From IMG/VR virus record IMGVR_UViG_3300020193_000026, positions 1-56,048 of that record: 56,048 bases of DNA, one strand, 5' to 3'. The notes under the pieces were generated by a model that saw nothing but the letters and a program-made list of their open reading frames with translations, did not search any database and was not told the DNA's origin. Shown here piece by piece: positions 899-26,649 of this stretch. Numbering within the stretch: the stretch's first letter is position 1; every line of letters begins with the position of its first letter. Origin of the DNA: a virus. A program made the translations under genes and the position numbers.

Positions 899-3800
899 GT
901 GGGTTTTCAGAAAGAAGAGCAACTGCACCCAGGGTGCGTTTTGTGCAAGCAGAAGAATGTAGCCCAGTCGGATGTTATCGACCAGGAGACTGGTCGTATA
1001 TTGGTCAAGAAGGGTGATTTTGCGATCCAGTGCAAGGGCATCCCTCTAGATCCTGTTGAGCAGGTAGTCCAGATTACCGAAAGAGCAGGGGTGAGGGATG
1101 AGCTTACTGATGGCGACATCAAAGCAATGGCGACTGTTCGTGACCCAGTCCTCTGGGCTCACGATAACGTAACCACTCTATCTGAGGAGACCGGACAGAG
1201 AGGGCCTTGGGTCCCACAAGGAGCGTCAGAGCAGAACATCGCAACCTATGGGCTAGACCCAAGTTCTGCATATTACCAAGAACTAATGGTGAAGTGCACA
1301 GCCCGACGCCAAGTCCTAAGACTGGGGCGGCGTTGCTTAGCCGCTGGCGAAATGGTTGCAATGGCGGACGGGACTTTTAAAGCCATTGATCAAATCTCTG
1401 TAGGAGATAGGGTGCTGTCTCGAAATATGTCGAGAGGGACATTCGTGTCAAAGAATGTCACGGCGATATATGAGAATGGGATTCAGAACATCTATCGGAT
1501 TACACTGAACGATGGAAGCGCCATCCGATGCACCGCTAACCACCCACTATTAAAATCTGTGGCTGGCCCTGAGGGCAGGGGGCGCTCACTTCAGTGGCAC
1601 TCGATCGAGAGCGGGCTCTCTGTCGGAGACAAGGTCCTGGTGGCGAGGGAGCTTGCTGTCTTTGGCTCAGACTCATTTGTTAACGAGGCCCGCCTTTTGG
1701 GGTATCTAGTCACAGATGGCTATCTGCCAGAGAAAGGTCAAACCCCAAAATTTACAAACACAAACCCAGCCTATCTGGAGGAAGTCGACAATTTAACTAA
1801 TGCTATTTTTGGCCAGCGAGGGCGGGTTCGTAACAAGCAAAGCAAGACATTACCGGCCTGGGATTATCACTTTACCGATGGGGATCACAGCACCCCCTCG
1901 TTCATTCGTAGCTGGCTAGAGGAATATCAGCTAATTGGAGCAAAGGCGTCGAATAAGACAGTACCAAAGAGATTATTTAGCGCCGACAAAGAAACAGTTG
2001 CACAGTTCATAAACAGATGTTGGAGTGGAGATGGTTGCGTGTTTGTGGGCCAGCCCAGGCTTGGTCGACAGCCTCAACTAGAGCTGACGCTGACAAGTGC
2101 AAGCATAGAGCTTTTAAAAGGCACCAGGTTGCTTCTAAAAAAACTTGGAGTACATTCTCGTATAAAAGAGGAGAAAGGGAGGAGCAACTGGAAGCTTTGC
2201 GTGACGGGCAAAACAGATTTAGAAGCCTTCCTGAACACTGTAGGTGATATTTTTGGGAAAGAAGCCAGATCTCAGGAAATGCGAAAAGTTTTAGGGCTTA
2301 TCACAAGACAGGCCAGAAACAAAGGGCATGCGACTGCGCGTTTGGCGAAGGTGGCTTCTATCACAAGAGATGGCAGCGAGCCAACTTTCGACATAACAGT
2401 TGATAAGTGGCATAACTTCGTGGTGGATGGGATCGTTAATCACAATAGCGGGAAGTCGTGGACGATTACGATCAAGGCATTACATAAAATGGTAACCAAC
2501 AAAGGTTACCGTGTCATGGTCATCACGCCCGCACAGGCCCAGCTAGATCTTATCTTTGATAGAGTCGATGATTTCATTGAGAACTCTACCTCTCTGAAAG
2601 CAAGCAAGGAGACCTACCGAAAGACCCCACAGAGATATATTGAGCTAACTAACGGTTCTTTCATGATCGGATTCGTTAGCGGCAATGATGGTATGCGCGG
2701 ACAGGCCGCGGATATGATCATTATTGATGAAGCTGATTATCTGGATACAGATGACCTCTCTGCCATCACTGCAATCTTGACAGAACACAACAACACAATC
2801 CTCATCGTTGCATCTACCCCAACCGGTAAGCGAGAACAGTTCTATAAGTGGGATCACGATCCGGCATTTAGGTCCTTCCACTTCCCCTCCATGTGTCGTC
2901 CAAATTGGAACGAAGGCATGGAGTTGGAGATGAAGAAGGAGAACCCTGGCGTCAAGTATCTCCATGAAATCCTTAGTGATTATGGCGAAATTGCAGACGG
3001 TGTTTTCCAGCACAGTCATATCGACAGAGCTCTGACTTACGGGGATTACCTATATGTGGATAATGAGCGGAGAGACGGTTGTATATATTGCGTAGGGGTC
3101 GACTGGAACCCTGTGCATGGAACAGAGATCGTTGTCGTCGAGACCGATCCCAAATATGGCAGGGCACAATACAAAGTTGTTGATTGTGGCCAAGTCTTCC
3201 GCGAAGGGAACACACAGATACAGGCCATCAATGAGATCATAAGACTAAACAGGAAATGGCAGCCAGAATTCATCTATGTTGATAGAGGCGCTGGCAATGT
3301 GCAGATTGAGCTGTTGCAGGAACTTGGAAGCCAGGCAGAGCCAAACACTCCAGATAAGCGCCTAGAAAATATCGTTAAGGCTGTTGACTTTGGAAGCAAG
3401 ATAGAGATGCGTCATCCGGTTGAGGGGACTGTATATAAAGAGTACGCTAAGCCTGCGGTAGTCGAGAATGCAATTCGTTACCTGGAGGCAGATCAGATTG
3501 TTCTGTCAAAGTATGACACCAACTTGATAAGAGCCTTGCGTGGCTACATCGTGCATAAGGTTAGTGCTAACGGCAGGCCCGTATACAAGATGGTCACCGA
3601 TGACATCGAAGACCATCGCCTGGACGCTTGGATGTTGGCGATGTTTGCTTTCACGATGGAATTCTCTAAGCTCGGTACGCCTCATATTGTCCCAACTGTT
3701 GCCTTTACGGGTATGTTTGGCGATGCTGTTAAGCGGGTTTCGTCTCACATTTCAGTTCCGATAGATGACAATAAGCCAACCTCTAGAGCTTTAGGGGCAA

Positions 3801-4021
3801 AAGAGCAAATAAAAATCGACCAGAGAGAACTAGCCAGAGAGAAAGAGTTGAATTATTTGCCTTCTCATACTATTATCGAGCCTACCTGGGAGAACGGACA
3901 GCGAGTCAATACAAAGATATACGATCGCACAGAGACTCTCCCGCGTAGATCTATCGGCGGTCGTCGCGACGAGAGCTCGACAAGAGGCCGAGCCCCAATA
4001 AAACGGAGTATGTTCAAATAA
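899..4021 (+). CDS. terL: Terminase large subunit (ATPase-nuclease) interrupted by an intein
   Basis: DNA-packaging motor of 1040 aa as encoded, 669 aa after removal of an intein at residues 146-516. The joined extein restores a Walker A of the form GRR-SGKS. Walker B is IIIDEAD with D610 and E611, followed by a coupling motif ASTPTG near residue 640. The RNase H-like nuclease follows with acidic residues in VGVDW (D735), FIYVDRG (D795) and DHRLDAW (D905, D909). The N-terminus has a CxxC pair at residues 13-16, possibly a small metal site. It starts at GTG behind AAGGTGG with a short spacer. ATP hydrolysis drives DNA through the portal, and the nuclease cuts the concatemer. The stop overlaps the next ATG by one base (TAATG), so the two are translationally linked. 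Confidence 0.97.
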   Translation: MGFQKEEQLHPGCVLCKQKNVAQSDVIDQETGRILVKKGDFAIQCKGIPLDPVEQVVQITERAGVRDELTDGDIKAMATVRDPVLWAHDNVTTLSEETGQRGPWVPQGASEQNIATYGLDPSSAYYQELMVKCTARRQVLRLGRRCLAAGEMVAMADGTFKAIDQISVGDRVLSRNMSRGTFVSKNVTAIYENGIQNIYRITLNDGSAIRCTANHPLLKSVAGPEGRGRSLQWHSIESGLSVGDKVLVARELAVFGSDSFVNEARLLGYLVTDGYLPEKGQTPKFTNTNPAYLEEVDNLTNAIFGQRGRVRNKQSKTLPAWDYHFTDGDHSTPSFIRSWLEEYQLIGAKASNKTVPKRLFSADKETVAQFINRCWSGDGCVFVGQPRLGRQPQLELTLTSASIELLKGTRLLLKKLGVHSRIKEEKGRSNWKLCVTGKTDLEAFLNTVGDIFGKEARSQEMRKVLGLITRQARNKGHATARLAKVASITRDGSEPTFDITVDKWHNFVVDGIVNHNSGKSWTITIKALHKMVTNKGYRVMVITPAQAQLDLIFDRVDDFIENSTSLKASKETYRKTPQRYIELTNGSFMIGFVSGNDGMRGQAADMIIIDEADYLDTDDLSAITAILTEHNNTILIVASTPTGKREQFYKWDHDPAFRSFHFPSMCRPNWNEGMELEMKKENPGVKYLHEILSDYGEIADGVFQHSHIDRALTYGDYLYVDNERRDGCIYCVGVDWNPVHGTEIVVVETDPKYGRAQYKVVDCGQVFREGNTQIQAINEIIRLNRKWQPEFIYVDRGAGNVQIELLQELGSQAEPNTPDKRLENIVKAVDFGSKIEMRHPVEGTVYKEYAKPAVVENAIRYLEADQIVLSKYDTNLIRALRGYIVHKVSANGRPVYKMVTDDIEDHRLDAWMLAMFAFTMEFSKLGTPHIVPTVAFTGMFGDAVKRVSSHISVPIDDNKPTSRALGAKEQIKIDQRELAREKELNYLPSHTIIEPTWENGQRVNTKIYDRTETLPRRSIGGRRDESSTRGRAPIKRSMFK
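1334..2446 (+). mobile_element. LAGLIDADG intein in the terminase P-loop
   Basis: 371-residue intein (protein residues 146-516). It starts at Cys146 and ends ...VNHN516 with Ser517 as the +1 nucleophile, so both splice junctions are canonical. Block A follows Cys1 (ADGTFKAIDQISVGD). Block B contains the TxxH-type segment CTANHP. Blocks F and G are FDITVDKWHNFVVDG and VNHN, with the usual penultimate His. A two-motif homing endonuclease lies between, with LLGYLVTDGYL and NRCWSGDGC each keeping an acidic residue. The insertion falls inside Walker A, between GRR and SGKS, so the ATPase can work only after splicing. P-loop sites are known favourites for inteins because the DNA target is conserved. 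Confidence 0.95.
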
Positions 4022-4959: not shown

Positions 4960-5397
4960 ATGGGATTAGCACATCCGGTCTTAGAATTACTTTTAAACAG
5001 AAGCGCAGCGAGCTACTTAACAGAGCAGATCCGCAAGTTGTATATGCGTCTATATCCATATATGGTCTACGATTTTGGCCATATTGGAGACATAAACGAA
5101 TCACTAATCCAACTGGACGCCAAGATAGATGCATTAGCGAAGCTCCTGAGTACTCATGTTCACCCGGTTCCGCCGGGCGCTGCCGTTTCCTCTGTCGCTG
5201 CCGTTCAGCTACCAGCCCTACCTCCGACTGTTATGGCAAATGATATCGCACTAGGCTTAGTGATATTGCCCGGCGTCCCTCAGCCAACGGGCGAGGCGCT
5301 TCCGGCAGTGTTGCCGTCTAGGGTAGGCCCTCCGACGGAAATCATCGCGACTCCGCCACTAAACCCAGCTGACATCACAGGGACTGGTATAGTTTAA
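4960..5397 (+). CDS. Unknown protein with Pro/Ala-rich C-terminus
   Basis: 145 aa from the ATG at 4960. A longer reading from a TTG at 4942 is possible, but it overlaps the previous gene and has no ribosome site, whereas the ATG has GGGA seven bases upstream. The first 70 residues look helical (LLLNRSAASYLTEQIRKLY) and include a segment with the pattern of an alpha-helical oligomerisation region. The rest is low-complexity Pro, Ala, Val and Thr, probably an extended linker or tail. It overlaps the next ATG by one base. No known family is recognised. Confidence 0.78.
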   Translation: MGLAHPVLELLLNRSAASYLTEQIRKLYMRLYPYMVYDFGHIGDINESLIQLDAKIDALAKLLSTHVHPVPPGAAVSSVAAVQLPALPPTVMANDIALGLVILPGVPQPTGEALPAVLPSRVGPPTEIIATPPLNPADITGTGIV

Positions 5398-6783: not shown

Positions 6784-9700
6784 GTGGAAGACATCATCGA
6801 ATTAGATCGACCAGTAAGGGATCTTCAAGAGGTTAAGCCTAGTATCAATCTGATGAAGGCCCTTTCCCCTGCGATTAAGCGTCCGACATTCACGTATAGG
6901 CTCCCTGCAAACTCTAATACACGCAAGAGTGGTGAGGCCTGGTATCCGGCTGAATATGATTTCGTCGATATTGGGATGGCAGAAGACACGGACTCTTTTG
7001 TCTATCAGGCCAACTTCAAGAAGCTTGCGCTAGCCATAAAGGCTGGGTGGGCATTTGTCTCCAGGGATCAGACATCGCTAGATTACATCAAACGACGCAT
7101 TTCCGAGATAGAGATCGCCCAGGGCCAGAGCTTTTGGGCTTTGCAGGTCGAGGTACTGAGCAACCTACTCAGATACCACAATTGCTTCCTGATTAAGGCG
7201 AGAGATATATCGACGTCAAGCGGGAAGGTAAGGAACGTTGACGGCTTCAAACTGAAGCCTATCGCTGGTTACTTCGTAGCTAGCCCAGAAACCATGCTCT
7301 TCCAGATTGGTAAGGACTATCACATTAAGGGCTACAAGCACATTATGCCGGATGGACGTGAGAAGGTATTCGCGCCAGAGGATGTAGTCCATTTCCATAT
7401 CTATAGAAAAACACATCATTTAGCAGGGACTCCATCATGGGTCCCAGTTCTCGATGACATAACCGCTCTTCGCCGCATCGAAGAAAACATCGAGAACTTA
7501 GTTCACCAACACATTCACCCCTTGTTTCAATACAAGGTAGGCACCGAACAAGCGCCAATGAAGCGTTACGAGGATGGCCTTACTGAATGTGACGTAGTCA
7601 GAGCCAAAATTCAGGATATGGCAAATGACGGTATGATCATTACTCCTGAGCGTCATGAGATAAAAGGCCTCGGCTCTGAAAGCCGGGCCTTAAGAGCTGA
7701 GACCTATCTTGAGTACTTTAAGAAGAGGGTGATCTCTGGCGCAGGTTTGTCAGAACTGGATTTCGGCTACGGGGACTGTTATGACGCACTGACAGAGACC
7801 CTCACCGAGACTGGATGGAAGAGACACTGGGAGATAGACCACACAGTAGAGAAGATCGCTACATTCAACCCAGAGACCTCTAAGATTGAATTCCATCTAC
7901 CAAATTACAAATACGAAGCCCAATATGTCGGAGATATGATTCAGTTCAGAGGAAAGCATATCGATATAAAGGTTACCCCGAACCATAAGATGTGGGCTCG
8001 TGCTCGTAATGTTGGAAGCCAATGGCAAAAGGTTGAGGCCCATGAACTCTACCACGGTAAGTGGAGCGAGTTCTATTTGCTAGAGTCAGCAGAATTTGAT
8101 AGCCAGGACATAAACGAACGCTTTACGATTAAAGCAGAAAAGCAGAAGAGGGGCCCCGCACCGACTGCGGTAGACTGCGATCTAGAATCTTTTGCGAAAG
8201 TCTTAGGGTACTTTGTCTCTGAGGGATGTCTTGACAAAGGTCGAGCCCGCAATGGTGCCTACCGAATCAATATTTCACAAAATAGAGGCGAGTCTTTCGA
8301 CAGAATTGTTGAAGCCATCTCTGATTGTGGCCTTAGTTTCAGCACGTACTTTCACCACTCCAGACCAGACGAAGGTCATATAACTATATATGGAAAGACA
8401 TTATATCACTGGTTAGAGCAGCATATCGCCCACGGCGCCCGCAACAAGAATCTGCCACAAATGGTTTTGGGCTGGCCAAAACTCGCTCGCAATGCCTTGC
8501 TCGAGGCTTTGATTGACGGTGATGGAACAGTTGACAAAAACGAGGGTGCGACAAATCGGACCTATTATACGACTAGCTCACAACTAGCTAACGATGTTCA
8601 GGTCCTTGCTCTGTCACTGGGGCTGAAAGCTAAGGTTAAGCTAACGCGACAATCCTCCGAAGCATATGGAGAATCTATCTATCGAGTCCACATCTCCGGC
8701 AGAGCCGGAGAAGAGAATAGCCGTATTGTCACAATGGATATGATCTCCAAGGTCGCATGTGATGAGCCGATCTATTGTTACAACGTCCCCAACCATCTCT
8801 TCCTGACCAGACGAAACGGGAAAGTGACAGTTCAGGGAAATACGAGCAATCGGGCGTGCTATTCGGAAGACACCGAGACGCTAACCGAGAATGGCTGGAA
8901 GCATTATTCGGAGATCTTGCCTGGAGAAAAGATCGCGACATTCAATCCGGCAAACAACCAGCTCGAATACCATGAGCCTGATGGTGGAATCTTCCTATAT
9001 GATTACGAAGGGCCAATGTACCATTTTAAAAACAGGAATGTTGACACATTGGTCACGCCAGATCACGACATGTGGGTCGAACATCGGCTTTGGAAGAGGA
9101 GTGAGTGGACGAAGGTACACGCCGAGGATATCAAATTTGAAAGATTTGGCTTCCGGACAGGTGGTATTGAGTGGGCCGGCGTAGATCCAGGGGACTTCTT
9201 ATTGCCCCATGTTCCCTACGGGCCAAATGTAAAGTGTCCAAACCAGGGGCCCTTCGAAAGAATTGACATATCTGATTGGTTGGAGTTTTTGGGATACTAC
9301 GTCTCTGAGGGCTATTTAGCAAAGGCCAGAAACAAGTGGGCCGTAACCATCAGCCAAAATAGCGTCGTAAATGCCGCAAAAACAGAGAAGATACGAAGGT
9401 GTCTTACGAGATTGCCGTTCAAGTTCAATGAGTACACAGATTCGAATGACCACACAACCCGATTCTGGATACACTGCAAGTCTCTTTACCTATACCTACA
9501 GGAGAATTGTAAAGATCATTCATACCTGAAGCAATTCCCGGAAGAGATCCTTTCGTATTCTGAGGAGTATTTAAGAATCGCCTTTGAGGCTGCCATGGCG
9601 GGTGACGGCACTTCTGACGGAAGAGAGGGTGGGTCAAGCCGAACGTACTATTCGACTTCAGACAATTTGATTGACCAGATGCAAGAAATCGCAATCAAGC

Positions 9701-10908
9701 TGGGATACCGAGCGCATGTATTGCCGGGTGCCAAGTGCAGCCGGGTCTGTATATCTATCGGAGCAGAATCGGAAGTTAATCAGAGCCAAGTCGAAGTCGT
9801 AGACTATAGAGGCAAGGTATATTGCTTTAGGGTCCCCAATCATCTCTTCTTCACACGAAGAAACGGTCGCATCGGAATCCATGGGAACACAGCTGACACC
9901 ATGTCTAAGCTAGCCATCGATAACGTCAAGTTCTATCAACAGTGCATGGCAGATGTGATCAACTTCCAGGTGGTTAGGGAGCTGATGCTGGAAAGCACAT
10001 TCCCATATGACCATTCCGATGATGAACAGCGAGTTGAGTTGCAGTTCAATGAAATCGATCTTGAGTCCCAAATCAAGATGGAAAACCACTTCATGCTTAT
10101 GTACCAGGGGAATACGATTACGGAGACGGAAGCTCGCAGGCACATGGGCAGAGAGCCTTTGAGAGACGACAAGAGAGAAGATACATTCCTGCACAGAATT
10201 GACAAGCCAAGGGTCGAGTGGCAGGTTGAAGCGGATCTCAACAAGGCCAAAGCCCAAGCTGCCAACAAGCAGCAGCCAACCAACCAGCACGGCAAGAAGT
10301 CAGGTCCTACAAAGAGGAAGTCGTCCGTAGAAAGAGACGGTGTCGCGACAGAGGCTTACAACGAGCTGGCAGAGGACATCAGGAGAGCAAGAGGGAGAAC
10401 AGTTAATCTGGGATTCATTAACCAGCTCTTTCTCGCAACAGCAGAGCGGACTAAATCCCTTTTTCAATCCTCAATCGAATCTGCCGTATTCAGAGGATCC
10501 CGCTCTTACCCCCCGTCTTTCGCTCTTCGCCTAGAACTCGAAGCAATCAACAAGCGGATCAGAAGAGACTTTGAAAACGATGTAGATCGCTTATTCAGAG
10601 ATGCTGCTATCGAGACACAAGCGCAATTAATAGAAAAGAAAGCCGACCGTTTGGCAATAGACGTATTAGAATATCGCATGCGATTCATTGAACACACTCT
10701 ACTGCACAAAGCCTATATACTGGGCAAAGTTGCTGCCATGCGTAGCAGTGGCGTCCAGCGAGCAAGAATCAAATCTGACCCAGAGGGTGAAGACTACCAA
10801 ATTTGGCACAATATCGTTATTGATCTGAATGATATCTCACTCGAGAACTTGCCGCCTTACCATCCAAACTGTGAGTGCGACCTAGAACCGGAGCCACTAA
10901 ATGTCTGA
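6784..10908 (+). CDS. Portal protein with two inteins, fused to a Mu F-like domain
   Basis: 1374 aa as encoded, 675 aa after removal of inteins at residues 332-686 and 692-1035. The first 331 residues are portal-like (SFWALQVEVL, the VHFHIYRKTHHLAGTPSW type segment, then a segment ending SELDFGYGD). After splicing the sequence would read GD-TSNRA-TADTMSK, a conserved-looking portal stretch. The C-terminal region ends LPPYHPNCECD. The HPNCxC pattern is the hallmark end of Mu gpF/SPP1 gp7-type minor head proteins, so this looks like a portal-minor head fusion. The start is GTG at 6784 behind a run of five G residues. Its stop overlaps the protease start by 8 bases. It forms the dodecameric DNA gate at the head vertex. 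Confidence 0.92.
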   Translation: MEDIIELDRPVRDLQEVKPSINLMKALSPAIKRPTFTYRLPANSNTRKSGEAWYPAEYDFVDIGMAEDTDSFVYQANFKKLALAIKAGWAFVSRDQTSLDYIKRRISEIEIAQGQSFWALQVEVLSNLLRYHNCFLIKARDISTSSGKVRNVDGFKLKPIAGYFVASPETMLFQIGKDYHIKGYKHIMPDGREKVFAPEDVVHFHIYRKTHHLAGTPSWVPVLDDITALRRIEENIENLVHQHIHPLFQYKVGTEQAPMKRYEDGLTECDVVRAKIQDMANDGMIITPERHEIKGLGSESRALRAETYLEYFKKRVISGAGLSELDFGYGDCYDALTETLTETGWKRHWEIDHTVEKIATFNPETSKIEFHLPNYKYEAQYVGDMIQFRGKHIDIKVTPNHKMWARARNVGSQWQKVEAHELYHGKWSEFYLLESAEFDSQDINERFTIKAEKQKRGPAPTAVDCDLESFAKVLGYFVSEGCLDKGRARNGAYRINISQNRGESFDRIVEAISDCGLSFSTYFHHSRPDEGHITIYGKTLYHWLEQHIAHGARNKNLPQMVLGWPKLARNALLEALIDGDGTVDKNEGATNRTYYTTSSQLANDVQVLALSLGLKAKVKLTRQSSEAYGESIYRVHISGRAGEENSRIVTMDMISKVACDEPIYCYNVPNHLFLTRRNGKVTVQGNTSNRACYSEDTETLTENGWKHYSEILPGEKIATFNPANNQLEYHEPDGGIFLYDYEGPMYHFKNRNVDTLVTPDHDMWVEHRLWKRSEWTKVHAEDIKFERFGFRTGGIEWAGVDPGDFLLPHVPYGPNVKCPNQGPFERIDISDWLEFLGYYVSEGYLAKARNKWAVTISQNSVVNAAKTEKIRRCLTRLPFKFNEYTDSNDHTTRFWIHCKSLYLYLQENCKDHSYLKQFPEEILSYSEEYLRIAFEAAMAGDGTSDGREGGSSRTYYSTSDNLIDQMQEIAIKLGYRAHVLPGAKCSRVCISIGAESEVNQSQVEVVDYRGKVYCFRVPNHLFFTRRNGRIGIHGNTADTMSKLAIDNVKFYQQCMADVINFQVVRELMLESTFPYDHSDDEQRVELQFNEIDLESQIKMENHFMLMYQGNTITETEARRHMGREPLRDDKREDTFLHRIDKPRVEWQVEADLNKAKAQAANKQQPTNQHGKKSGPTKRKSSVERDGVATEAYNELAEDIRRARGRTVNLGFINQLFLATAERTKSLFQSSIESAVFRGSRSYPPSFALRLELEAINKRIRRDFENDVDRLFRDAAIETQAQLIEKKADRLAIDVLEYRMRFIEHTLLHKAYILGKVAAMRSSGVQRARIKSDPEGEDYQIWHNIVIDLNDISLENLPPYHPNCECDLEPEPLNV
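7777..8841 (+). mobile_element. Portal intein 1 (LAGLIDADG type)
   Basis: 355 residues (332-686 of the portal precursor). It starts at Cys in GD|CYDALTETLT and ends VTVQGN| followed by Thr+1. Block B is ITPNHKMWA-like (VTPNHK). The endonuclease motifs are LGYFVSEG and LIDGDGTVD, both retaining an acidic residue. Block F is CYNVPNHLFLTRRNGK. The penultimate residue is Gly instead of the usual His, a variation also seen in the second portal intein. The sequence is clearly related to portal intein 2 (shared ETLTE-GWK and KIATFNP at the start, VPNHLF-TRRNG near the end). Confidence 0.93.
8842..8856 (+). other. Five-residue micro-extein TSNRA between two inteins
   Basis: Fifteen bases encode T-S-N-R-A, the only portal sequence between intein 1 (ending GN) and intein 2 (starting CYS). 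Thr687 must act as the +1 nucleophile for intein 1, and Ala691 is the -1 residue for intein 2. If both inteins splice, the portal reads GD-TSNRA-TADTM. If the N-half of intein 1 pairs with the C-half of intein 2, these five residues would be lost with both inteins. Confidence 0.9.
8857..9888 (+). mobile_element. Portal intein 2 (LAGLIDADG type)
   Basis: 344 residues (692-1035 of the precursor). It starts at Cys in RA|CYSEDTETLT and ends IGIHGN| with Thr+1. Block B is VTPDHDMWV. The endonuclease motifs are LGYYVSEGYL and AAMAGDGTSD. The second keeps the Asp, although its preceding positions are less typical. Block F is CFRVPNHLFFTRRNGR. The same Gly replaces the penultimate His as in intein 1. 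The two inteins are homologous along their length but clearly diverged, so this is not a recent duplication. Confidence 0.93.
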
Positions 10909-13963: not shown

Positions 13964-15271
13964 ATGGCTATTAGAGATTTAAATCAGCTCAGAAAGATGC
14001 CATTCCACGAAGTGGACGCAAAGGCTGATGTAAAGTTTAAGGACTTTGAATATGCGTGGCGTTCGCCAGCGCATCAGCTTCCAGATGGCAAACCACTACA
14101 GATGAAGGACGTCTTGACGATGTGGGAGTCGCCTCTGTGGGTCCCCAAGGTCATTAATAACAACATGCAGGAAGCTATTGAGCCTATGCTCATTGCCACA
14201 AACATGTTGCAGCGTCTTCCATTCAATGGTTATGGCACCTTCGTCGACATGCCAGTAATGGGTGCCGTAGATGGTGACTTCGAGGTTGGCGAACTGGAGG
14301 CGTATCCTGAGTTGCGTGTGACCTACGGGCCAGCAGCTCAGATCGCCAACGCGCCAGCCAAGTACGGTCTCGCCGTGAAGTTCTCGGACGAAGTACTTCG
14401 TTACTCTCAGTTCGACGTAATCACAATGGCAACCCGTCAGGCCGCACGCGCTCTGGCCCGCAACAAGGAAGAGAAGATCTGGAACATGTGGAGCAAGCTT
14501 GCTCGTGTTACCCACGACAACCTTATGCCATTGAACTCGGCTTTCGGGACGACAACTGGTCGTGATCTAACGGGCGCCCAGAACGGAACTCTCACAATGG
14601 ATGACATCTTTGAGATGTACGCTCAGGTCCTTGCTCATGGTTACACACCTGACTTGATGTTTGTGCACCCACTAACCTGGATGATGTTCCTTCAGGATGC
14701 TCAGCTCCGTCAGTTCGCTCTTGTTAATCAGTCAGCATGGTACCCGCAGCAGTTCAACGGAAACCCTGCATTCCAGCAGTGGCCAGGTGGCTTCGGTGGG
14801 CGTGCGCTACCAGGGGGCGAGTACCGTTCGTGGCCAAATAGCGCCCACACTCCTAAGAGTGGAGATGGTGATGCCCTTCCGATCGGTGCAGATGGTGAGT
14901 ACCAGAACTTGCAGGCATCTCCTGTCCTGCCAAGCTACCTTGGACTCCCGTTCCGTATTGTTGTAAGCCCTTGGGTTCCTTACGATGTGGCTTCGAACAC
15001 CACGAGCATCATCATGGCAGACAGCAAGGAGCTTGGTTATTACATTGAAGAGCACGGGCCGAAGTCGAACGAATGGACTGATCCCGAGACCGATATCCTG
15101 AAGATCAAGATCTCTGAGCGTTACTTGATCCGTCCGAAGGATAGAGGCCTTGGTTTGGCGATCGCGAAGAACATTGTCGTAGACAGCAACAAGATCATCC
15201 TCCCAGCAATGGCACAGATTGATGTGGCCGGTAGTATCAGTGCTGCAACCCGTAACGTAGCTGTTCCCTAA
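13964..15271 (+). CDS. Major capsid protein (HK97 fold)
   Basis: 435 aa. The order fits an HK97-fold shell protein: an N-terminal segment (about 1-60) that may be a delta domain or cleaved arm, a spine-helix region (TMATRQAARALARNKEEKIW), a middle with DLMFVHPLTWMMFLQD (the A-domain strand-helix, 'VxxPxxW' type), and a C-terminal part with the ADSKELGYYIEE strand and the GLGLAIAKNIVV end typical of these capsids. It starts at ATG behind AAGGAG. The gene sits directly after scaffold and a candidate accessory capsid gene, and is closed by a palindrome and a strong terminator, consistent with heavy expression. Confidence 0.9.
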   Translation: MAIRDLNQLRKMPFHEVDAKADVKFKDFEYAWRSPAHQLPDGKPLQMKDVLTMWESPLWVPKVINNNMQEAIEPMLIATNMLQRLPFNGYGTFVDMPVMGAVDGDFEVGELEAYPELRVTYGPAAQIANAPAKYGLAVKFSDEVLRYSQFDVITMATRQAARALARNKEEKIWNMWSKLARVTHDNLMPLNSAFGTTTGRDLTGAQNGTLTMDDIFEMYAQVLAHGYTPDLMFVHPLTWMMFLQDAQLRQFALVNQSAWYPQQFNGNPAFQQWPGGFGGRALPGGEYRSWPNSAHTPKSGDGDALPIGADGEYQNLQASPVLPSYLGLPFRIVVSPWVPYDVASNTTSIIMADSKELGYYIEEHGPKSNEWTDPETDILKIKISERYLIRPKDRGLGLAIAKNIVVDSNKIILPAMAQIDVAGSISAATRNVAVP

Positions 15272-17599: not shown

Positions 17600-19321
17600 A
17601 TGGCAAAGGCATATACATTTAGCGCATCAGGTGGTCTGGTTCCTGTAGACGCTCTAGAGGCTGCTACCTCGATCAATATTGCAAGTAGCGCCTTCGTGGC
17701 TAACTCGTCGGGCATCACAATGGGCTCGGACAAGGATATCACCCTCTCGGGCGGTGGTGAGATCCTGGGCCTTCCTTCTACTCCATCGGATGCAACCGCA
17801 GCTGCTTCGATGGCCTATGTCCAGTCATATGCGGACAGTGTAGCTTCGGGCCTGGATGTTAAGAAGAGCGTACATCTGGCGACTGCAGAAGCCCTCGCTG
17901 CTTGTACCTACGCAAACGGCACATCGGGTGTTGGAGCAACGTTGACATCCGATGCGAACGATTTTTTATTTGTAGATGGTATTGCCGTGGAGGTGGGCGA
18001 TCGTGTCCTCGTTAAGGATCAGGCGGCTAGTTTCGAGAACGGTATCTATGTTGTTACGGGAGGCGGCAGCTCCTTGACCGCATTCGTATTGACCCGCGCA
18101 AGTGACGCCGATACTGGTGGCGTAAGCGGCGAGTTGACCCCAGGTGCCTTCACTTTCGTGGAAGCCGGCAACGTAAACGCAGACACAGGCTGGGTTGTAA
18201 GCTCTCCCGACAGTGCTATCAACATTGGCACAACAGCCATTAGCTGGACACAATTCTCGAGCGCAGGTATTATCTCAGCGGGCGCTGGTCTTATCAAGAC
18301 CGGAAACACCATCGATGTTGTTTCAGGTAACTCGGCTATTGTGGTGAATGCCAACGATATTACCCTGTTCCTAGGACCGATGTCTGGCTTAGAGATCACT
18401 TCAGGTTTGAAGATCGATCTGGACGTCAACCCAGGTCTTGCGCTTGGTGCCGATGGTCTCAAGGTTGATGTGAATGCCCTCTCTGATGCTGCTACAGAAT
18501 TCAGCGCCGCCTCCGTCGGTATCGACTACTTCCCATTCTACGATGCGGCCAACAGTGCGACAAAGAGAGTCTCGTTCGCTCAGCTAGCCAGCGTAATGGC
18601 AGGCACCGGCATCAGCGCCTCGAACGGCATCTTTGCAGCAGCCCTGAGTGAGCTTGATTCAAAGGGTTCGCCTGATTCGTTGGATCTGATTGTTATCGTC
18701 GACGGTACTGACAGCGACAGCAAGAAGGCATCGATGACGTCGATTGCTTCCGTCCTGGCAAGCTTGCTCGACGGTTCTGGCCTTGGTGTTATGGCAGGTG
18801 AGTTGGTTGTGAATGTCGATAACAGCACAATCGAAATTGACTCGGACTCTCTTCGTTTGAAGGATGGAGGTATCACGGCTGGAAAGCTTGGGACCGGCTC
18901 TGTCACAGCAGTCAAGATGGAGCTCGTGAACAGTGTATCCAGCTTGGTATCGGCAGCAGCAGTAACCGCCCCAGAGTGCAAGGCGGTTTATCTTGTCGCT
19001 GCTTCTGGTAAGGTCAACCTGTCGGAGAACTCACAGGCTGGTGCACACGTACAGGGCCTCTTCGCCAATAGCTCAGACATTGCTGGTGCAGACGAGAATG
19101 TCGATCTCTACACAGTCGATGGTTCGTTCTTGACGATTCCTTCGGCTGCCCGGGCTGCTGCAAGCTTCACAAAGGGCGCAATTGTTTATGCGATTGCATC
19201 TGGAATCTTGACGACTGACTTCAGTGGTCAGTCAAGTGGCGACTGGCTCTGCCCAGTCGGAACTTCGGTCGACACCAACAAGCTGATCTTGCGTATTGGC
19301 TCGCCGTTCCAGAAGGCCTAA
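17600..19321 (+). CDS. Fibre-type structural protein
   Basis: 573 aa, strand-rich with many Ser, Ala, Gly and Asp repeats, no membrane segment. Residues about 89-215 form a recognisable fibre domain (VHLATAEALAAC, then GDRVLVKDQAASFENGIYVVT, then LTRASDAD). A diverged copy of this domain is also inserted in the tail sheath. Afterwards come regular short repeats of the type GLKIDLDVNPGLAL, typical of phage fibre shafts, and a compact C-terminal domain. The gene is led by GGGGAG and closed by a strong terminator, so it is probably abundant. A head fibre or long surface fibre fits its position between head and tail modules. A tail-fibre role is the alternative. Confidence 0.83.
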   Translation: MAKAYTFSASGGLVPVDALEAATSINIASSAFVANSSGITMGSDKDITLSGGGEILGLPSTPSDATAAASMAYVQSYADSVASGLDVKKSVHLATAEALAACTYANGTSGVGATLTSDANDFLFVDGIAVEVGDRVLVKDQAASFENGIYVVTGGGSSLTAFVLTRASDADTGGVSGELTPGAFTFVEAGNVNADTGWVVSSPDSAINIGTTAISWTQFSSAGIISAGAGLIKTGNTIDVVSGNSAIVVNANDITLFLGPMSGLEITSGLKIDLDVNPGLALGADGLKVDVNALSDAATEFSAASVGIDYFPFYDAANSATKRVSFAQLASVMAGTGISASNGIFAAALSELDSKGSPDSLDLIVIVDGTDSDSKKASMTSIASVLASLLDGSGLGVMAGELVVNVDNSTIEIDSDSLRLKDGGITAGKLGTGSVTAVKMELVNSVSSLVSAAAVTAPECKAVYLVAASGKVNLSENSQAGAHVQGLFANSSDIAGADENVDLYTVDGSFLTIPSAARAAASFTKGAIVYAIASGILTTDFSGQSSGDWLCPVGTSVDTNKLILRIGSPFQKA

Positions 19322-23760: not shown

Positions 23761-26649
23761 ATGGCAGATAAGTTCCCAAATATCCCAGGTATCACAGTAG
23801 GTATCCGTGACGGCAGCCTTCGTCCAGAAGCAGCTCCGGCCGGCCCAACTGTTGTCGTACTCGGCACAGCAAAGAAGGGTCCTTCTAAGAATGCAGCAAG
23901 AACCATTTCTGGTAGCTCTGCTCTATCAAGATTCGGATTAAGTGGCACCTTAGGACGCGGCCTCGTCGAGGTCTTCCAGGGGGGAGGCGATAACGCTCTA
24001 GCGTTCCGTGTTCTCGCTACAAAGGCTAAGCTTTCACATATCGGCGACATCACAGGCGAAGGTGGCTATGTCGTAGAGACTGTAGGTGAGGGCTCTGACG
24101 CTCTCGCCAAGATCAGTGTCCTTTACGATAACGCAGACGACATCCTGAAGGTCTTTGATGTTGCTTCGAGCCAGCTTGTGTATTCGAATGACCCAAATCT
24201 TCCCGTCAACCTCGGCGTTGTTGAGGTAACGGGCGAGAAGGCCGTCGACAATCCTTCTGGTAGCATCGGAAAGGCAATCAAGCTTCGCACCGACGAGAGC
24301 CTCCAGCGTGCGACACGTTCGGGAGATGATGTCCTCACCATCGTTGCAGGCAGCAATCTGTCCCTGTTGAGATTCGACGAAACGTCGAATCCTTGCAAGG
24401 TCCAGGTTCTCAGCGGCCTGAGTGGCGCCACGAAGAAGATCGCTGTTCATTTGGCAACTGCGGCAGAATTGGCTGCTAGCGCCTACAACAACGTCGCCGG
24501 TACCCTCACAGCAAATGCTGCCGGTCAGTCAGACATCGACGGAACTGCAGTGGTGGTGAATAACAGAATCTTGGTTAAGAACCAGGCAGCTCCGGCCCAG
24601 AATGGTATCTACACTGTGACGACTGTCGGGGCACCCGGGGTTGCCCAGGTTCTGACAAGAGCTCCTGACGCTGCTGCTGCTGACGAATTCTCTGAAGGAA
24701 TGTATGTCGAGGTTACCGCCGGTGCCACGAACAGCGGAAACGGCTACTGTCTGACAACCGACGCACCAGATGACGGGTATGTCCTCGGGGTGACAGCTCT
24801 GACGTTCGCCGAAATTGACCTAGACCCAGACAACTGGCTGGTCGAAGCCAATGTGATCGCAGTCAATACTGCCAATGGTACGTTCGACATTGATAGTACC
24901 GTAAGCGCAACTTCATTCCCAGCAATCCCGCACAAGGTTCGTTTCATCAGCAGCATTAGCGGTCAACGTGCCGACAAGATCCTGCACAACAGGCTATTCC
25001 TTCTTGAGGCAGACGCAGACAATGCTGGAGTCCAGCCGCTGATTGTGCTTCCAGGTTCGGACTTCAACGGCCTTCCAAAGGTCAGCAATGATTTTGGTTT
25101 CGCTGTCGATGTTGAAGATTCGGAAGGTGTTCTGGCTCTAGAAGAGGTGTCCCCTGCAAAGATGAACATGTTCGAGGCGATGGAAGACGCCTTCTTGGCA
25201 CTGGAGGCAACTGAGTTCTCTGTCATCGTCATACCTGGCGTGTACGCAAACGATCCGGCACTCGACGGCCTGACTTCGGGCGCAACAGCACTTCCAAGTG
25301 CCGCTCTCAGCGGGATCGATAAGGTCAATACAATCGCAGGTTTTGCTGATAGAGTAGACGTAACATTCGATGTCGGCGCTCGTAATGCCGCAGTTGTCGT
25401 TCTTGAGACTGGTGGACGCGGTGCCTTCTGGGCAGTATTTAACACTCTTCAGGGGGCAGGCTTCGGTGAAAACCTTGTTGAGGGCGAGTTGGTTCGTACG
25501 GCTCGTGTCTTGAACTGGGCAGAAGATGCGGATGATGAGACTGTCCTTAGACTCTTCTTTGACCGCGATCTGGGCTTCTCTGTTGATGACAACGGTGTCG
25601 TGGTCGGAAGCAATGAGCCAGAGATGACTGTATATCAGACAGACCTTCTCTTCTACCATCGTGCAGTCGAGGTCGACGGTAAGCTTCGTCACATGTGGTA
25701 TCCTGAGACTTCAGATGAAGACGGCTTTACGTACAATGAGGTCAACTTCGCTTATCGTCTCGCTAGATTCTGTCAGGAGATGACCGAGAACGAGATTGCC
25801 ATCAACGGTGTCATCGGTGTTCGTCCTCCGACGAACCACTTCAGCTCCGCTGCTTTGGCGCAGTGGATCGGAAAGTCGCCAACCTTCTTCGAGGGAGACG
25901 TTAACGTGAATGGCACGGGTCTGTTGGGCAACAAGTTTGTCGCCGGCCTATTGATGGAGGACAACTCGCAGTTCGACCCTGGCTACAAGGCAACTGAGTC
26001 CGGAGAACTCGATGACGAAGAGATCTTGCTCGATGCCAACAACTTTGAAGTTGATATGGGCAAGTTCTTGAGCACGGTCGCAACATGGCCAATCTTGAGC
26101 AATGAGGCAGACATCTCGGGTCTAGGCTACATCAACTCTGGAGCTGCAGTCTACGCAGGCTTACTTGCCGGACTTCCTTCCTGGAGAGGCGCAACAGCTA
26201 AGTTTGTCGGTGGCCGTGGAATCCGACTCGCAATGAAGCTCGCAAAGCGTCATCAAGATTCTTTAACAAAAGCGCGCTATGTTGTGTTTGATCAGCGGCC
26301 AGAGGGTGTAATTGTAGTAGACGCACCCTCTTCTGCTCTGCCAACCTCTGACTTCACACGCAATATGACAGTGAGGTTGGTTTCTGAGGCAGTCAAGATT
26401 TGTCGCGATGTCTCTCGTCCGTTCCTTGGCGACCCACTCAGCGGGATCAAGAAGGCCGGTCTAGAGACAGCCCTTAAGAAGGGTCTGTCGGATCTGCAGA
26501 GAGCTTCTGGTGGCGCCCTCGAGGCATTCGACCTGAGCCTTACACAGACTAAACTGGATAAGATTCGCGGCACTGCAAAGTTAACCCTAACACTACAGGT
26601 CATCAATGAGCTACGTAAGATCTCTGTAGACGTTGCTCTTACTCAGTAA
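23761..26649 (+). CDS. Tail sheath protein with an inserted fibre-type domain
   Basis: 962 aa, contractile sheath subunit. The N-terminus (FPNIPGITVGIRDGSLR, then VVLGTAKKGP) and the C-terminal half (EIAINGVIGVRPPTNHFS, the RGIRLAMKLAKRHQ region, the final TAKLTLTLQVINELRKISVDVAL) are typical of myovirus sheaths. Residues about 224-357 are an insertion (VHLATAAELAAS, ILVKNQAAPAQNGIYTVT, LTRAPDAAA) homologous to residues about 89-215 of the fibre protein at 17600. It would decorate the outside of the sheath. The size exceeds the usual 480-660 aa of sheaths partly because of this insert. It starts behind AAGGAG and shares the codon style of the capsid gene. Confidence 0.92.
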   Translation: MADKFPNIPGITVGIRDGSLRPEAAPAGPTVVVLGTAKKGPSKNAARTISGSSALSRFGLSGTLGRGLVEVFQGGGDNALAFRVLATKAKLSHIGDITGEGGYVVETVGEGSDALAKISVLYDNADDILKVFDVASSQLVYSNDPNLPVNLGVVEVTGEKAVDNPSGSIGKAIKLRTDESLQRATRSGDDVLTIVAGSNLSLLRFDETSNPCKVQVLSGLSGATKKIAVHLATAAELAASAYNNVAGTLTANAAGQSDIDGTAVVVNNRILVKNQAAPAQNGIYTVTTVGAPGVAQVLTRAPDAAAADEFSEGMYVEVTAGATNSGNGYCLTTDAPDDGYVLGVTALTFAEIDLDPDNWLVEANVIAVNTANGTFDIDSTVSATSFPAIPHKVRFISSISGQRADKILHNRLFLLEADADNAGVQPLIVLPGSDFNGLPKVSNDFGFAVDVEDSEGVLALEEVSPAKMNMFEAMEDAFLALEATEFSVIVIPGVYANDPALDGLTSGATALPSAALSGIDKVNTIAGFADRVDVTFDVGARNAAVVVLETGGRGAFWAVFNTLQGAGFGENLVEGELVRTARVLNWAEDADDETVLRLFFDRDLGFSVDDNGVVVGSNEPEMTVYQTDLLFYHRAVEVDGKLRHMWYPETSDEDGFTYNEVNFAYRLARFCQEMTENEIAINGVIGVRPPTNHFSSAALAQWIGKSPTFFEGDVNVNGTGLLGNKFVAGLLMEDNSQFDPGYKATESGELDDEEILLDANNFEVDMGKFLSTVATWPILSNEADISGLGYINSGAAVYAGLLAGLPSWRGATAKFVGGRGIRLAMKLAKRHQDSLTKARYVVFDQRPEGVIVVDAPSSALPTSDFTRNMTVRLVSEAVKICRDVSRPFLGDPLSGIKKAGLETALKKGLSDLQRASGGALEAFDLSLTQTKLDKIRGTAKLTLTLQVINELRKISVDVALTQ

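Follow-up and report, generated by a model that had tools for sequence, protein, structure and literature searches.

The portal gene of one virus record raises the question of how two inteins came to lie in the same protein with only five residues between them, and whether they are one element copied in place or two elements that arrived, and leave the protein, independently of each other. The window, which is the whole stretch of 56,048 nucleotides that was analysed, provides an answer given with high confidence: the portal very probably carries two LAGLIDADG homing inteins that are non-allelic, belong to independent site-specific lineages, and would each excise on their own.

The portal gene and its empty relatives

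The gene (6784..10908, plus strand, stop codon included) is an ORF of 1374 aa with a GTG start, open from end to end, whose layout is ...LDFGYGD/355 aa/TSNRA/344 aa/TADTM... (a slash marks each junction), and the regions flanking the inteins are those that match the portal family of PHROG (3.6e-32). The portal fold was recovered in L003, a relative whose portal is naturally empty of inteins and whose model (pLDDT 74.3, pTM 0.49) matches the lambda portal with Z 21.4 over 326 residues. The terminase (899-4021), the portal, the major head protein (13964-15271), and the tail sheath (23761-26649) follow one another in an order that fits a contractile-tailed phage; the closest named phages by portal are Acinetobacter phage ME3, Bacillus phage KLEB27-3, and Moorella phage MTATph1, with 31-38% identity. 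The tail-sheath match of ORF 23761-26649 is confined to its C-terminal part, and this ORF and the one at 17600-19321 have common matches to one group of tail-fibre/virion-protein families, a shared inserted domain. A third intein of 371 aa is located in the large terminase (window 1334-2446) at the Walker A motif, GRR/C...HN/SGKSWT, and its site is empty in L002 and L005.

The boundaries of the portal inteins are given by relatives that lack both. Five IMG/VR contigs encode a portal whose N-terminal part, counted over the sequenced part only, is 91-94% identical to that of the window; one of them, L005, ends before the site, and the exact empty sequence GYGDTSNRATADTM is found in all four that cover it (L002, L003, L004, and L006; 92-94% identity in the N-terminal extein), both sites being empty and both inserts in frame. 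Since these relatives read GYGDTSNRATADTM, both junctions are residue-exact and TSNRA is part of the mature protein. The N-extein (6784..7776, plus strand, 331 aa), delimited by alignment to the empty relatives (92%), ends in FGYGD, and the C-extein (9889..10908, plus strand, stop codon included) starts with TADTM and is 84-92% identical to them. The micro-extein TSNRA (8842..8856, plus strand, 15 bp) belongs to a conserved motif: of 66 motif counts, 61 have Asn at position 3 and 65 have Arg or Lys at position 4. A sequence-only reading of this DNA had proposed two in-frame inteins separated by TSNRA within the outer coordinates 7777-9888; these coordinates are exact, and the 15-bp micro-extein that it described is conserved across portals and must survive in the product.

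In the L003 model, TSNRA corresponds to residues 332-336, between helices 298-319 and 343-370, and residues 333-338 have a pLDDT under 50. In SPP1 gp6, according to the accessible part of PMC9701221, the tunnel loop (347-368) comes after a stem segment (327-346). Judged by topology, TSNRA probably lies in the DNA-gripping tunnel loop of the portal, a location in which both inteins would have to splice exactly; in fact, an intein left in place there would obstruct or occupy the DNA channel, and strong selection for accurate splicing is therefore expected. A literature search joining inteins and the portal tunnel loop, with subscription papers mostly outside its coverage, found no paper.

Architecture and predicted splicing of the two inteins

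Intein 1 (site 1; 7777..8841, plus strand) consists of 355 aa and intein 2 (site 2; 8857..9888, plus strand) of 344 aa, and both carry a LAGLIDADG endonuclease with the motifs LGYxVSEG and GDGT. By motif reading, these run from LGYFVSEG to GDGT in intein 1 (8203..8529, plus strand), where Pfam LAGLIDADG_3 also matches (2.6e-19 for the portal ORF), and from LGYYVSEG to GDGT in intein 2 (9289..9612, plus strand). Both inteins also have Cys1, a block B of the form TxxH (TPNH/TPDH), a block F reading YCxxVPNHLF, a terminal GN, and Thr at +1, and over the full length they share 34% identity (BLASTP 8e-54). This identity, the Pfam match, the PHROG match of the flanks, and the four of four empty relatives together indicate that the motif-bearing inserts are not due to chance. 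The model of intein 1 (pLDDT 90.6) is composed of HINT and LAGLIDADG domains and aligns along its whole length with inteins that bear an endonuclease: the same fold is found in TliVMA (7qsu; Z 28.3 over 321 residues, 21% identity) and in PI-PkoII (2cw7; Z 26.3 over 324 residues, 24% identity), both of which differ in host protein and site, and in PI-SceI (Z about 24), while the endonuclease fold matches I-DmoI (Z about 15). The HINT fold is assigned to intein 2 by its full-length homology to intein 1. Among mini-inteins, the structure nearest to the intein 1 model belongs to the class 3 AceL NrdHF intein (Z 19.4). The earlier description of a pair of complete inteins, both having their own Cys1, splicing blocks, and LAGLIDADG endonuclease, is thus borne out by motif reading.

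The penultimate residue of inteins is usually His. Both inteins of the window have the residues of class 1 with Gly in that position, which counts against the preferred explanation, although the terminal GN is common to all 19 aligned inteins (relatives and window rows). As judged from these residues, each intein would most likely splice by the class 1 route, so that after translation each would remove itself by means of Cys1, the terminal Asn, and the following Thr to leave GD-TSNRA-TADTM. Block F (window 8773-8802 and 9820-9849) provides a Cys besides Cys1 in all 19 aligned inteins. The sequence-only reading had also regarded the short extein as a strong steric and kinetic constraint, a claim that is not supported: terminase inteins cloned between folded MBP and GFP spliced fast, as reported in the accessible part of PMC5050341, so that having a folded protein only a few residues off does not by itself prevent splicing.

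Another outcome could be composite splicing, in which the N-terminal half of intein 1 and the C-terminal half of intein 2 would remove everything between them, TSNRA included, either as the principal outcome or as a regulated one. Homology between the two HINT domains makes cross-pairing conceivable, and an apparently composite arrangement exists in two other loci, L017 and L022. However, both inteins of the window have full motif sets, unlike the units of L017 and L022, and the conservation of TSNRA across portals implies that the shortened product would probably be dead; composite splicing is consequently considered very unlikely, and independent excision of each intein is preferred.

In L017 (2919-6998, with the units meeting at nt 5001) and L022 (2834-6910), two same-site inteins stand head to tail with zero residues between them. 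The first unit retains Cys1 and the endonuclease motifs and has lost the TxxH and block F residues, while in the second unit Ala or Ser replaces Cys1 and the rest is kept; the first units of the two loci are 61% alike and the second units 40%, these being two diverged phages. From its residues the tandem looks like a composite intein. Two inteins are also found in L018 and L019, 38 and 41 residues apart, and the host proteins of these four loci are probably portals of another family, judged by context. The zero-residue tandem is a stronger oddity than the five-residue pair, and it limits the latter to the shortest spacing between two complete inteins in this survey, not between intein-like units.

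Intein lineages and homing at neighbouring sites

The homology of the two inteins, which are in one superfamily and 34% identical, could be explained by tandem duplication, that is, by one intein copied beside itself with later divergence of the copies. A tree of 48 rows, of which 27 "other" rows were hand-picked from the fetched intein loci and are not all of them, separates the two by site: 10/10 site-1 inteins are in one clade (97/99), that of intein 1 of the window, and 11/11 site-2 inteins are in another (97/85), that of intein 2, which also includes the intein of L137. The latter is inserted at NRA/TADT in another ORF, which, judged by motif alone, is probably a portal of another family. 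The two inteins of the window are therefore not sisters; each groups with same-site inteins of other phages' portals and not with its neighbour, and tandem duplication, extremely improbable, was rejected on this tree. In particular, intein 2 is 60-67% identical to same-site inteins elsewhere, with 67% to that of L109, whose host portal is 41% identical, and 60% to that of L053, whose host portal is 36% identical; intein 1 is up to 53% identical to the intein of L086. Inteins that are more alike than their host portals bear the mark of horizontal movement, and the two inteins would have arrived by separate homing or recombination events and not by duplication in place.

The loss of the endonuclease with retention of splicing is a usual step of the homing cycle. 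Endonuclease motifs are lost and splicing residues kept in L088, L104, and L112 at site 1 and in L056, L139, and L140 at site 2, while both inteins of the window have the endonuclease motifs still intact. A weak co-conversion footprint is present around the sites: compared with L003, synonymous changes affect 19 of the 24 codons that lie no more than 10 codons from the sites, whereas the fraction for the full set of 577 codons is 0.484, and 2.5% of same-size windows are as high, although no signal appears with windows of 20, 30, or 50 codons.

The recognition sites of LAGLIDADG endonucleases span roughly 14-40 bp. With insertion sites only 15 bp apart, those of the two endonucleases probably overlap, and cleavage at either would be expected to eliminate the other. 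The proposal that either insertion affects the endonuclease site of the other is supported in part: the distance implies overlap, but a 15-bp spacer might still leave both enzymes with a full half-site. Interference in homing between the two inteins is plausible. In Haloferax, according to the accessible part of PMC10643990, two neighbouring inteins each home well if only one site is empty, but homing of the pair is very poor when the allele has neither site filled, an effect that the authors attribute to two nearby breaks. At overlapping sites, if both enzymes cut as predicted, an empty allele might instead receive a single break and both inteins might be copied together, co-homing as one unit, a possibility that is put forward only tentatively. 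If true, this would be the opposite of the interference reported for wider-spaced neighbours, and rivals for one target would become a joint element.

The Haloferax pair belongs to the haloarchaeal MCM-a and MCM-d inteins (PMC10643990, in its accessible part), which, like the portal pair, are two non-allelic LAGLIDADG inteins in a single gene, inserted at conserved sites that are neighbours and that are each also found occupied alone. The MCM host is a cellular helicase for which cleavage and homing were tested, whereas here the host is a phage portal with sites 15 bp apart and recognition sites that probably overlap. CDC21-1 and CDC21-2 of Pyrococcus abyssi (PMC6801210, in part) are likewise two close inteins in one protein, but they are mini-inteins without endonuclease, 27 residues apart, while the portal inteins both have an endonuclease and are separated by 5 residues. 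In mycobacteriophages (PMC5050341), as here, inteins occur in portal and terminase, and terminase inteins were shown to splice and some to cut; no mention of double intein occupancy was found in the accessible part of that paper. A search of the literature on adjacent, tandem, or consecutive inteins, with subscription papers mostly outside its coverage, found only the MCM paper and one on methylase insertion. The 27 residues of PMC6801210 are the closest published spacing among the literature passages found, with other multi-intein genes unmeasured; such genes are already known, and the five-residue spacing is not claimed as a record. The portal pair is a real, well-bounded, and rare double intein, useful chiefly for testing how homing proceeds where sites overlap. 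It represents a natural limit case, in which an essential virion protein contains two homing inteins with a common 15-bp flank. One small construct could ask what minimal extein length between two active inteins permits correct ligation, and the same double-intein construct could ask whether neighbouring homing elements cease to be rivals and become partners when their targets overlap.

Occupancy of the two sites among related portals

A portal profile search confirmed 193 loci, of which the best 80 were retained, and 93 portal records were placed by combining portal-search loci, intein-search loci, the three named phages, and the window, after the removal of contigs fetched twice (L134, L136, L163, and L164), of L005, which ends before the site, and of L144, which is another kind of portal. 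For three of the records, the occupancy state was read by eye. The 93 records, which form 65 groups at 90% identity, comprise 70 empty portals, 10 occupied at site 1 only plus one site-1 case cut short, 10 occupied at site 2 only (a count inflated by the intein-based searches), one double, and L007, which lacks the motif. Empty, site-1-only, and site-2-only portals therefore all exist, as emerged from the search of related portals that the earlier reading had proposed, and together with the tree they identify two non-allelic, site-specific lineages in one gene. Single-occupied alleles exist in relatives, and the double may have arisen through them in two steps. The best 80 of the 193 portal-search loci alone include 9 site-1, 3 site-2, and 68 empty portals; about 0.3 doubles would be expected in 80 under independent occupancy, so that one double overall is not remarkable by number.

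The double allele is found only in the window (1 of 93 records), a single metagenomic virus record, and this would also be expected if two single-occupied alleles had been joined into one contig by the assembly. Against such an artefact, the two inteins have no long stretch of identical DNA (the longest is about 80 bases at 71%) and thus give no evident point of joining, the ORF is uninterrupted, and neither intein was found alone in close relatives (about 92%); an assembly origin is accordingly rated as highly improbable, and a genuine double allele is retained.

Further doubles were sought in IMG/VR and GTDB by means of the double-junction signature [QH]-G-N-T-x-N-R-x-C-Y, which recovers the window itself, is blind to AGY serine and to second inteins not starting with CY, and may pass over records close to the window. 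Six IMG/VR and seven GTDB stretches matched, none of which is a double junction; one of them, L177, is the single-occupied L109 portal, reading GQGNTANRS/CY. A variant with Ser (TCN) at +1 gave 0 matches, and one with Lys for Arg gave 1, in a 10-residue frame that is not a junction.

As the survey of portals shows, the motif TxNRxTA is a hotspot for two separate intein lineages. In the L076 portal, both usual sites are empty and an intein is present at a third site, DEPY/C...GN/SAAS, near the C-terminal part. Related inteins are also inserted before Thr at NRA/TADT (L137:5001-6068), NHA/TAVE (L010:4329-5348), and TEA/TSKV (L144:3610-4584) in distant portal-like proteins, and the presence of a site-2-like motif in these proteins suggests a wider hotspot.
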